Shown here: one piece after another, positions 22,532-32,922 of the stretch
Position numbering within the stretch: position 1 is the stretch's first letter
Layout: each line of letters begins with the position of its first letter
Virus record (IMG/VR): IMGVR_UViG_3300035703_000224
Span: 1-37,084 of that record
Length of the DNA stretch: 37,084 bases
Direction: 5' to 3' (one strand)
Source: a virus
Made by a program: the position numbers and the translations under genes
Notes under the pieces: generated by a model
Told to the model about the DNA's origin: nothing
The model's input: the letters and a program-made list of their open reading frames with translations, nothing else
Databases searched by the model: none

Positions 22532-22996
22532 CTAGGACTTCTTATTTTTTCCTCTATAAGTATCAGTAAGAGCATGGCAATTAGGACAAAGAAGACGAAG
22601 ATTTTCTAATCTATTGTCGTGGTGATTACCATTAATATGATCAAGTTCAATTGGAGTTGGTCTACCTCTCCATTCTGTTATTCCACATTCTTCACATTTG
22701 TGATCTTTAATTCCTTCTGAAATAAGTCTATTACGAAGTCTAAAAGATTGAACTACAGTATTTTCTTTAAGATAATCTTCAACAGGTCTTTTTGGTCCTA
22801 ATTTTTTATCCCTACTCCAAGCTTGTCCATGAAAGTGTGATGTATCAATTCCTAACTTAGATATTCTTCTGTGAGTTGTTTGATAATTTCCTCCAGCAGC
22901 AATTATATTAAGTTTTTGTAAAACTTGCCTAATACTGCCAGAAGTTTTTACTGCTTCACGAAGTTGTTCTTCAGTATAAGTGTATCTTTTATTCAT
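22532..22996 (-). CDS. HNH endonuclease, free-standing
   Basis: 154 aa. Residues about 8-60 form the helical DNA-binding module common in phage HNH enzymes (SIRQVLQKLNI, AAGGNY, GIDTSHFHGQ). The nuclease part has zinc pairs C101/C104 and C137/C140 and the HNH core ELDHINGNHHDNRLENL, with H120 as general base and N128 and N132 or H141 in the remaining positions. The complete catalytic motif suggests an active nicking or double-strand enzyme. It sits beside a tRNA gene in a small accessory patch between structural genes, the usual place for a homing endonuclease. No intron or inteln boundary is visible nearby, so it appears free-standing. Upstream is very AT-rich without a clear promoter. Confidence 0.9.
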   Translation of the reverse strand: MNKRYTYTEEQLREAVKTSGSIRQVLQKLNIIAAGGNYQTTHRRISKLGIDTSHFHGQAWSRDKKLGPKRPVEDYLKENTVVQSFRLRNRLISEGIKDHKCEECGITEWRGRPTPIELDHINGNHHDNRLENLRLLCPNCHALTDTYRGKNKKS

Positions 22997-23040
22997 TTAA
23001 ATAGTAAACTTTATATTATATATATTATTTTACCTTTTAA

Positions 23041-23114
23041 TAGGGGTGGTGAGATTCGAACTCACACTGTGCGGTTTTTAAGACCGCTTTCTCTGCCTGT
23101 TGGAATACACCCCC
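23041..23114 (-). tRNA. tRNA-Leu (anticodon UAA), short variable arm
   Basis: A 74-nt cloverleaf can be drawn by eye. The acceptor GGGGGTG pairs with CACCCCT (first pair G-U), with discriminator A. The D arm has TTC/GAA and a loop with GG. The anticodon stem GCGGT/ACCGC is perfect around loop CTTAAAA, giving anticodon TAA. The variable region is only ACAGT. The T arm GTGAG/CTCAC is perfect with loop TTCGAAT. No CCA is encoded. Decoding UUA suits an AT-rich phage. Bacterial tRNA-Leu normally has a long variable arm, which is absent here. Confidence 0.85.
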
Positions 23115-23197
23115 AAAAAAGGACTTACATAATCAAAAGATTAATGCCTTTGCACTTCCTCCACACCTTGTCAGTGTACTATAGGACTACTCTCTTG

Positions 23198-30299: not shown

Positions 30300-32015
30300 T
30301 CAAACAATCTGATAGACTAATTTTGAATACATTGTCAAGAAATTATCAGAATAAGAAGTATCTATAGCAGGAACATTATCATTGACTGCAGCAGTTGTTG
30401 ATGCTTGTGGTGATGATGCTCCTCCAACTGGCATAGGTGCAAGAACAAAACTTGGTTGTTGAGATGATGGAGATGGAATATTTCTTGCAGGACTTCTGGT
30501 TCCTGTTACTTGAGGAGTTATTGGAAGACCAGCAGAAGATTGTGCTTGTCTTAAATAATTTTCAAAATTCCTATAAAAAGAAGAGGTATGAACATTTTCT
30601 TGACTTCCTCCAGGAAGAGATGGCCAAACCCCTCTCAACCTACTGACTACCTGATCAACTTTACCAGACCTAATTAAATTGACAATTTCTTGTTCTCCTC
30701 CAGAAAACAAACTGGCAAGATATGCTCTATTAATTTTATATTGATTCTCTGCATTAAACAATGCTGTTCTTGGATCCAGTCCTGCAGCAATAGTTCTTGC
30801 TCTTAAAAATTCAGACATTTGCTGCATATTTCCCATAGCACCTGAGGTTTTCCCTTGTGCTTTTAGTTGTTCAACTTTTGCTATAGCTTGATCTATAGTC
30901 ATTTGAGACAACCCTGGAAGGGCACCTATGGTATTAACTGATTCTAGTCCACCCTCTCCTCCTGAGATGGCAGACATTAAAGCATTAATTTCTCCTGGGG
31001 CTGGTCCTGAAATTAATTGTCCTGGAGATCCTCCTCCTCCTCCACCACCACCTCCTCCACCTCCAGAGGATCTTTGTCCTTGCTGTTCACCTTGCCTTTT
31101 CAGAAGGAAATCTAATGCCTCTTCAAATTTCTTATTAAGACTTTCAAATCTCTTTAAATCATTTTGAGGTAGTGGAACTAAACTTGATGATTGTGTTGAT
31201 GCTTTTTGTTCTTGAGTTAATTCTTCAAGTCTTTGTTGAGTTGTATTTTCTTCTCCTCTACCAAATAAAGAACTTGCTAAAGCAACACCACCAGCAGCAA
31301 GAGCTGCCTTGCCTCCAAACTTGCCCAATCTTCCAAGTCTAGATGCACCTGCTGCTGTTCCTGCAGCACCAGCTCCTGCACTTGCTCCACCTCTAGAGAA
31401 TAATGATCCTACTAATTTGGATGTGAGTGTTGTTGCTATTCCACCAATGACAGCAGGAATGTAAGTTGCCCCAATTCCAATCAGAGGACCTATAATTTTT
31501 GATGGGTCTCCACTTAAAATTCCTTGAAGAAGATTGAACATTGCCAATCCTCTAATTGCTCCACCAGCACCACTAAAGAATGAACCAGTATACTTTTTAA
31601 CTGCTCCAAGTATATCAGTTTTACTATCCCCTAATTCTTTCTTACCTAATACTCTTCCTCTATTAGCAATTCTTTTTCTATACTCTTCAGATTCTTTTCT
31701 ATTTTGATCTTGAGTATTTTTATAATCTTCTGCTATAACCTGAAGAATTTTTTCTAAATTATTTTTAGTCTGTTCTAAATTTAAAGTTACTTTCCCCAAA
31801 TAAGAAACATCTCTCTGAGATGTTGATATACCATCATCGCCTGCAGTGGATACCTTTAATTTTTCTGCTAACTGCTGAGGTAAAGACCTACTAGGAATTA
31901 AAGATATTCTTCTAATATTTGGGGCACCAAAAGACTTAGACTTACTCCCAAGACTTGTGCCTGAAATAAATCTAGTTACTCTTTGTTGAAAATAACTAAA
32001 GCCTTCTGGTGTCAT
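30300..32015 (-). CDS. Tape-measure-like protein with lambda-lysozyme-like transglycosylase domain
   Basis: 571 aa. A long helical N-terminus (about 70-135), KKYTGSFF (about 140-147), and hydrophobic segments (about 155-205) resemble a tape-measure protein. A run of 12 glycines (about 318-329) forms a hinge. Residues about 340-475 resemble the lambda endolysin (GH104 lytic transglycosylase): GEINALMSAISGGEGG with candidate catalytic Glu354, LDPRTALFNAENQYKIN, and VWPSLPGG matching lambda IWASLPGA. It starts as ATGA over the gp51-like stop, the position expected for the tape measure after tail chaperones. The enzymatic call is from motif memory and needs confirmation. Confidence 0.75.
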   Translation of the reverse strand: MTPEGFSYFQQRVTRFISGTSLGSKSKSFGAPNIRRISLIPSRSLPQQLAEKLKVSTAGDDGISTSQRDVSYLGKVTLNLEQTKNNLEKILQVIAEDYKNTQDQNRKESEEYRKRIANRGRVLGKKELGDSKTDILGAVKKYTGSFFSGAGGAIRGLAMFNLLQGILSGDPSKIIGPLIGIGATYIPAVIGGIATTLTSKLVGSLFSRGGASAGAGAAGTAAGASRLGRLGKFGGKAALAAGGVALASSLFGRGEENTTQQRLEELTQEQKASTQSSSLVPLPQNDLKRFESLNKKFEEALDFLLKRQGEQQGQRSSGGGGGGGGGGGGSPGQLISGPAPGEINALMSAISGGEGGLESVNTIGALPGLSQMTIDQAIAKVEQLKAQGKTSGAMGNMQQMSEFLRARTIAAGLDPRTALFNAENQYKINRAYLASLFSGGEQEIVNLIRSGKVDQVVSRLRGVWPSLPGGSQENVHTSSFYRNFENYLRQAQSSAGLPITPQVTGTRSPARNIPSPSSQQPSFVLAPMPVGGASSPQASTTAAVNDNVPAIDTSYSDNFLTMYSKLVYQIV

Positions 32016-32197
32016 TTATTTGCTCTCTGTGCCTTTTCCTCTTCTTCTTGAATATGATTTTCAAGCAATGCCAAATAAATCTCCCTTTCCCAAGGAATCA
32101 TATTCTCAAGCTCAGTCAATGAGTATTTATGATACTGCATCAAGGCAAAGTTTGTCCTGTAATAAGACTCCAAATCCTCATGACCAATTACTACCCG
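32012..32197 (-). CDS. gp51: Baseplate hub assembly factor gp51-like, expressed by -1 frameshift from gp26
   Basis: An unreported frame continues past the gp26 stop. From the codon after the slippery site it encodes 61 residues, including YYRTNFALMQYHKYSLTELE, MIPWEREIYLALLE and a charged tail QEEEEKAQRANK. The pattern resembles T4-type gp51 and other tail-assembly chaperone partners. The first in-frame ATG is at 32140, which would drop the conserved-looking YYRTNFAL block and lacks a well-placed Shine-Dalgarno. The frame opens only 12 bases before the slippery heptamer. The TGA overlaps the next gene's start as ATGA. The 303-residue gp26-gp51 fusion is therefore the likely product. Coding is well supported; the frameshift is inferred. 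Confidence 0.78.
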   Translation of the reverse strand, partial: RVVIGHEDLESYYRTNFALMQYHKYSLTELENMIPWEREIYLALLENHIQEEEEKAQRANK

Positions 32198-32922
32198 AAA
32201 AAACTTGAAAGACCCTCAAGAACTATTTCATTTTCAACACCAGTGTTTGGATTCTTAATAGTAAAAGTATGAGATAACTTTGGCATAGTATCAAAGAAGT
32301 TTTCTATTCCTTTGAACTGATTTGAATCAAAAGTTTGTAACCATTCAACAAGTTCTTTCTTGGTTACATCTGATGCTGACCAAGATTCATCTGCAGTATA
32401 GACCATATCAATACAAGATGCCACTATTTCAAATGATTTATTAATGGTATCCTTACTTGTTACATTACCTGAAAAATTAAAGTTATTATCAATAAATTCC
32501 TGCAGTGAAGGATACTTCATTTTAATTGTGATACTATCATCAACTTTAATTTCTGATGTGTGTCCTTCAGGAATCACAACTTCAATTTCATCAATATTTA
32601 CTTTCACTTCTACTTGTGTTTGATTGTCATCTGGGCAAGTAACAATCAAATCTACAGACTCACCTACAGACTTTGCTCTAATGTTTAAGAAAAGATATTC
32701 AATATCAAAACTAGGAAGAGAATCTATCTTAACTCCTCTAGTCAGAACACACTCTTTGAGAGTATTTTTAACTGCATTAGTAATTTCTTTTGTATCATTG
32801 CTTTCCATAGCCAGGATAAGAATCTTTTCTTCCCCAACTAAAAAAGGTCTATACTTAATTGACTTTTTACTTGAAGGTAAAATCAACTCATAGGTTGGAG
32901 TTGCAACTTTTGGTAAAGGCAT
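32191..32922 (-). CDS. gp26: Baseplate hub protein gp26 (T4_baseplate family)
   Basis: 243 aa. The N-terminus (LPKVATPTYELILPSSKKSI, then KYRPFLVGEEKILILAMES) and the central FDIEYLFLNIRAKSVGE (about 74-90) are hallmarks of T4 gp26. The rest is beta-rich with a helical region near 165-215. It ends SSFFG just after a -1 slippery heptamer, from which the gp51-like frame follows. T4 also has 26 then 51 in this order. By position just before the tape-measure-like gene, gp26/gp51 are analogous to lambda gpG/gpGT. A late motif sits 26 bases before the ATG, and the start codon is preceded by little Shine-Dalgarno signal. Confidence 0.9.
   Translation of the reverse strand: MPLPKVATPTYELILPSSKKSIKYRPFLVGEEKILILAMESNDTKEITNAVKNTLKECVLTRGVKIDSLPSFDIEYLFLNIRAKSVGESVDLIVTCPDDNQTQVEVKVNIDEIEVVIPEGHTSEIKVDDSITIKMKYPSLQEFIDNNFNFSGNVTSKDTINKSFEIVASCIDMVYTADESWSASDVTKKELVEWLQTFDSNQFKGIENFFDTMPKLSHTFTIKNPNTGVENEIVLEGLSSFFG
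32197..32203 (-). promoter_or_regulatory. -1 ribosomal frameshift site (T TTT TTC)
   Basis: In the gp26 frame the codons are AGT TTT TTC GGG TAG, so T TTT TTC has the exact X XXY YYZ phase for -1 slippage, two codons before the gp26 stop. A 5-nt spacer (GGGTA) is followed by a weak possible stem GTAAT/ATTAC with a 23-nt loop. Slippage here opens the gp51-like frame without a stop. Confidence 0.7.

Follow-up and report, generated by a model that had tools for sequence, protein, structure and literature searches.

Frameshifting between the G and T genes is widely conserved, except in T4 (Atkins et al. 2016, PMC5009743). For T4-like phages, the passage of PMC10885494 that cites Vladimirov, Gautam and Davidson (Virology 2022, 566:9-15) states that some of them pair a short gene with a longer copy that is fused. 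PMC12846349 cites Vladimirov et al. 2022 for poly-T slip signals in the TAC-N genes of T4-like phages. Among hub assembly chaperones, PMC3004832 lists the gp26 and the gp51 of T4 itself, gp51 being needed for assembly and not found in the particle. As far as the citing papers convey its content, Vladimirov et al. 2022 had already identified the TAC genes among T4-like phages and proposed a –1 frameshift for gp26/gp51, so the idea is not new. Our search of the literature found no experiment on gp26/gp51 frameshifting. The Virology study of Vladimirov et al. from 2022 reportedly describes frameshifting as conserved in several T4-like groups, with the T4 group having separate genes 26 and 51.

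Here, we analysed the gp26/gp51 junction of a T4-like phage of the cyanophage group (IMGVR_UViG_3300035703_000224, positions 1 to 37,084; this whole stretch of 37,084 nucleotides is called the window below). Compared with the TAC genes of T4-like phages in Vladimirov et al. 2022, as represented by the citing papers, these are the same genes (PF12322/phrog_150 and phrog_634, TAC-N/TAC-NC) with a poly-T slip site. Three items come from the present analysis, namely a scan of synonymous sites, a survey of start codons and the Shine-Dalgarno (SD)-like element, Vladimirov et al. being known here through the papers that cite it. The parallel with lambda G/GT drawn by the first-pass annotation of this DNA holds in logic, as the mechanism matches, and family searches detect no sequence similarity between the lambda genes and gp26/gp51. 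The slippery heptamer of lambda G/GT is GGGAAAG, unlike T TTT TTC here. The TAC locus of Pseudomonas phage Adele (Vandenendeviridae/Andersonviridae) is similar in having a conserved poly-T –1 signal at the end of TAC-N, an open –1 frame and a second ORF that is likewise misannotated as a separate gene, but it uses a GTTTTT motif and belongs to other phage families (PMC12846349).

The junction and its predicted products

All parts of the junction (gp26, the heptamer, the –1 frame and the next gene) lie on the minus strand (Table 1). The 3' end of gp26 reads TCA AGT TTT TTC GGG TAG. The first-pass annotation had reported the AGT TTT TTC GGG TAG ending with an in-phase heptamer, and we find T TTT TTC at 32203..32197 in exact X XXY YYZ phase, a single codon (GGG) separating it from the stop. 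The 61-codon –1 frame described there is likewise present, its TGA (32014..32012) overlapping the ATG of the next gene (32015) as ATGA. The predicted products are a short form of 243 aa and a long form of 303 aa, to which the slip adds 61 codons. In-phase X XXY YYZ heptamers are common in the AT-rich window (73 in 11,735 codons), and 17 of them are based on T6 or A6. Among these 17, only the gp26 heptamer combines 61 open –1 codons with a stop one codon later; the 16 others open at most 17 codons in the –1 frame.

Table 1. Features of the gp26/gp51 junction, in window coordinates
Feature	Position	Strand	Evidence or remark
gp26 / TAC-N, zero-frame short form, 243 aa	32191..32922	(-)	PF12322, phrog_150, AlphaFold2 pLDDT 86.5
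SD-like GAGGG, candidate stimulator	32213..32217	(-)	GAGG ends 10 nt before heptamer
Slippery heptamer T TTT TTC, P site TTT, A site TTC	32197..32203	(-)	T TTT TTN in 174/178 unique junctions
Zero-frame stop TAG, one codon past heptamer	32191..32193	(-)	stop 0-3 codons from heptamer in 174 junctions
–1 frame (FF + 61 codons + TGA), gp51 / TAC-C part of predicted long form	32012..32203	(-)	phrog_634, phrog_150, dN/dS
First in-frame ATG, codon 22 counted from slip	32138..32140	(-)	ATG in 75% of relatives, otherwise ATT/GTT/ATC; no conserved start
Next gene, 571 aa, start overlaps gp51 stop as ATGA	30300..32015	(-)	lysozyme-like C-terminal half

The gp26 protein belongs to PF12322 T4_baseplate (E-value 2.5e-75) and phrog_150 (E-value 1.9e-81), and the –1 peptide to phrog_634 ('baseplate hub assembly catalyst', gp51; E-value 1.7e-28). 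The –1 peptide also matches the C-terminal part of phrog_150 (231-281 of 282); therefore, some phrog_150 members have both parts in one chain. When residues 1-86 of the AlphaFold2 model of gp26 were compared with the HK97 tail assembly chaperone 2OB9 by VIA-align, 84 residues were superimposed with an rmsd of 4.0 and a Z of 7.9, a value that unrelated folds can reach. The top VIA-align rows for the model were 3fgx (8.0), 2OB9 (7.9), 3klu (7.1) and 5ir0 (5.0), the next row scoring 2.4. A Foldseek search of the model against the PDB gave no significant match (2OB9, E-value 0.78), and a PDB sequence search with gp26 gave no match. With Foldseek non-significant, the placement of the model beside 2OB9 is supportive of a chaperone fold and not proof of it. 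The gp26/gp51 products would act as the tail assembly chaperones TAC-N and TAC-NC, a role that we infer.

The first-pass annotation called the next gene tape-measure-like, a label that our searches do not confirm: the 571-aa protein matched no Pfam, PHROG or NCBIfam family above threshold, and its residues 340-571 resemble a phage tail-lysozyme-domain protein. Its middle part is Gly/Ala-rich and hydrophobic, and it is almost without relatives in phage records (2 matches). Elsewhere in the window, the central part of the tail gene cluster holds an HNH endonuclease gene (22532-22996) next to one for tRNA-Leu(taa) (23040-23115), and the N-terminal half of a 395-aa ORF (329-1516) matches ferrochelatase-labelled families, its C-terminal half matching a 2OG-Fe(II) oxygenase family.

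Conservation of the slip site and selection on the –1 frame

We collected related loci from IMG/VR and phage records and obtained 178 unique junctions. The conservation check proposed in the first-pass annotation favoured the frameshift: T TTT TTN is kept in phase, 0-3 codons ahead of the stop, in all but four junctions (168 TTC, 4 TTT, 1 TTA and 1 TTG at the A site). All 80 of the 80 closest IMG/VR loci have T TTT TTC one codon ahead of the stop. The heptamer-bearing junctions come from freshwater and marine cyanophage-like contigs and from Pelagibacter, Aeromonas, Vibrio, Citrobacter, Rhizobium, Agrobacterium and Desulfovibrio phages; a Desulfovibrio-type query found no relatives in IMG/VR. 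The four exceptions are T6 and three Ackermannviridae-like phages with shorter T runs. These Ackermannviridae-like relatives retain the –1 frame behind a run of T4-T5 only (GTTTTTC, CTTTTC, ATTTTC), which suggests a single-tRNA slip. In HTVC008M-like Pelagibacter phages and others, the stop immediately follows the A site (TTT TTT TAA, TTC TGA).

The amino acid ahead of the slip can be Ser, Ala, Asn, Asp or Arg, yet its codon is NNT throughout; the probability of NNT TTT arising by codon choice is ∼10^-10.7 (32 clusters, own codon usage). The A-site codon is TTC in 28 of 32 clusters; the –1 frame, in which its C is the first base of an Arg/Gln codon, may account in part for the retention of this C. 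We then scanned a codon alignment of 162 sequences for synonymous change. Relative to expectation, this change is 0.00 and 0.05 for the two Phe codons and 0.31 for the codon before them; from extension codon 4 onward it scatters about 1, and it drops again where the next gene overlaps. A few further low windows lie far upstream, in the N-terminal part of gp26. Since synonymous change is near absent at the Phe codons and normal downstream, the heptamer is the nucleotide-level signal at the junction.

The –1 frame was examined at codons 6-21, past the zero-frame stop and ahead of ATG22, the codon-level comparison that the first-pass annotation had also called for. Its dN/dS is 0.135 and 60 sampled sequences hold no stop, whereas the other two frames give ratios >1 and stops in 56/60 and 59/60 sequences. 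By this measure, the –1 frame is under purifying selection ahead of any conserved start codon. The start-codon survey found ATG22 in 75% and ATG6 in 59% of relatives and no start common to all; 46 of 162 relatives have no ATG, GTG or TTG at codons 3-10, though the residues there are conserved. Neither a shared start nor a loss of the frame before the ATG, both among the points named beforehand as contrary to a frameshift, was seen in these relatives. The argument that ATG 32140 lacks a good ribosome site proved uninformative, since in these phages the true starts of gp26 and the next gene are also without SD sequences. The annotation of gp51 is inconsistent among records: it starts at ATG6 in P-SSM2 and at ATG22 in S-RIM8, and is unannotated in Syn2, Asswx_1 and Maynard. 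A second conserved Glu column (TELE; –1 frame codon 31, window 32111-32113) has GAG in 12 of 17 clusters against 27% usage, ∼9 nt upstream of a codon-35 ATG that 90% of relatives keep. This may mark an internal start, or may be chance.

The T4 group offers a natural comparison. T6 and five further T4-group phages carry genes 26 and 51 as separate genes in divergent orientation, and the slippery heptamer is absent from the last 20 codons of gene 26 in 6/6. T6 gp26 matches only the TAC-N part of phrog_150 (14-235 of 282). T6 gp51 matches 14-280 of 282, with no gap at the stretch that corresponds to the frameshift junction of the window; therefore, the predicted frameshift product exists as a single-frame gene in relatives. 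The two T6 proteins show weak mutual similarity (BLASTP E-value 7e-05). Judged by these alignments, T4-group gp51 is a full-length in-frame fusion of the TAC-N and TAC-C parts.

An SD-like candidate stimulator

An SD-like stimulator upstream of a –1 site is known from Escherichia coli dnaX (PMC3711429). Like dnaX, gp26 has a slippery heptamer with an SD-like element upstream, a likeness in presence only; unlike dnaX, gp26/gp51 is without a conserved downstream hairpin, and the heptamer and the gene are different. The GAGG upstream of the gp26 heptamer encodes Glu-Gly. We found that 19 of 21 clusters encode this Glu by GAG, compared with a GAG usage of 27% (binomial test, P-value 1.7e-9). Among the 15 conserved Glu columns of 27 aligned cluster representatives, it has the highest GAG share (0.90; the next has 0.71 and the rest ≤0.39); over all 162 sequences, with near-duplicates counted, it ranks third (0.84). 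Pairing with the anti-SD sequence exceeds that of synonymous randomisations (mean –6.71 versus –5.61 kcal/mol, 0/500), and is not significant for the window sequence alone (–6.1 versus –5.5 kcal/mol). A GAGG located ∼10 nt upstream and chosen against codon usage is possibly new, and it would stimulate the slip.

No conserved downstream hairpin or pseudoknot was seen: the 162 sequences show no synonymous suppression downstream and the fold z is –1.48. A downstream RNA hairpin or pseudoknot was rejected as the stimulator on these same two grounds, synonymous change downstream being normal. The absence of conserved downstream RNA structure is possibly new as well. The frameshift of T4-like cyanophages could be set by pairing between mRNA and 16S rRNA alone, with GAGG at a fixed ∼10 nt spacing and no downstream structure, a proposal to which we give an even chance. 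If true, a two-part signal is kept family-wide in phages whose genes mostly go without SD sequences. The SD-like element is a simple and testable stimulator candidate.

A probable single gene for gp26 and gp51

Two forms of the tail chaperone are almost certainly made from one stretch of RNA by a –1 slip before the stop, and we consider it very probable that gp26 and gp51 belong to a single gene, which is read either without a slip, to give TAC-N, or with a –1 slip on T TTT TTC, to give TAC-NC. The programmed –1 frameshift put forward in the first-pass annotation is supported by the heptamer, the selection on the –1 frame and the T4-group fusion. At the level of sequence, the slip site is conserved, the –1 frame is selected and the T4 group holds a fused counterpart. 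In the proposed mechanism, translation would mostly terminate at TAG, which gives TAC-N (243 aa). A smaller share of the ribosomes (both the slip and its rate are inferred) would shift back by one base at T TTT TTC, probably aided by pairing of GAGG with 16S rRNA ∼10 nt upstream, bypass the stop and add 61 residues to give TAC-NC (303 aa). The roles suggested by the lambda gpG/gpGT pair are, for TAC-N, coating of the tape measure protein and, for the TAC-C tail, recruitment of the tail tube protein as the tail is assembled.

One could instead take gp51 for a separate gene that needs no frameshift, its translation beginning at an internal start or through reinitiation past the gp26 stop. GenBank records do give gp51 its own ORF, tight gene spacing makes reinitiation feasible, and a separate gp51 could start at the codon-22 ATG or, in the ∼60% of relatives that have it, at the codon-6 ATG. 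However, the survey above found no start common to all relatives, and residues are conserved at codons 3-10 even where no NTG is present. A separate gene also leaves unexplained both the T run frozen upstream of every start and the T4-group fusion with its missing heptamer. We therefore regard this reading as very unlikely. Transcriptional slippage on homopolymer runs is a known phenomenon, treated in the review PMC5009743, and the T run is conserved; RNA polymerase might slip on T6, so that a minority of mRNAs with an extra U would give the long form by ordinary translation. However, a run of six T that ends in C is short for such slippage, and most of the AT-rich relatives have no longer run. 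The exact X XXY YYZ phase, the predominance of TTC at the A site (partly a matter of the –1-frame Arg/Gln need) and the constant spacing of the SD-like element agree better with a slip of the ribosome. Polymerase slippage thus appears slightly less likely still than a separate gene. An error in sequencing, or a frameshift mutation that arose recently in a single genome, is refuted by independent copies, the 174 of 178 junctions coming from many assemblies and isolates together with the 80/80 closest loci, and its probability is negligible.

Overall, a –1 slip within one gene is the reading that we retain. The frameshift trick itself has already been described for tail chaperones, T4-like ones included, and the conservation of the slip site is extremely good here. 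The T4 group, which has two genes where its relatives use recoding, makes this a clear comparative case. In many cyanophages, the annotated 'gp51' most likely represents the C-terminal portion of a protein made by frameshifting and not a separate protein; many records would therefore carry a wrong or missing start.
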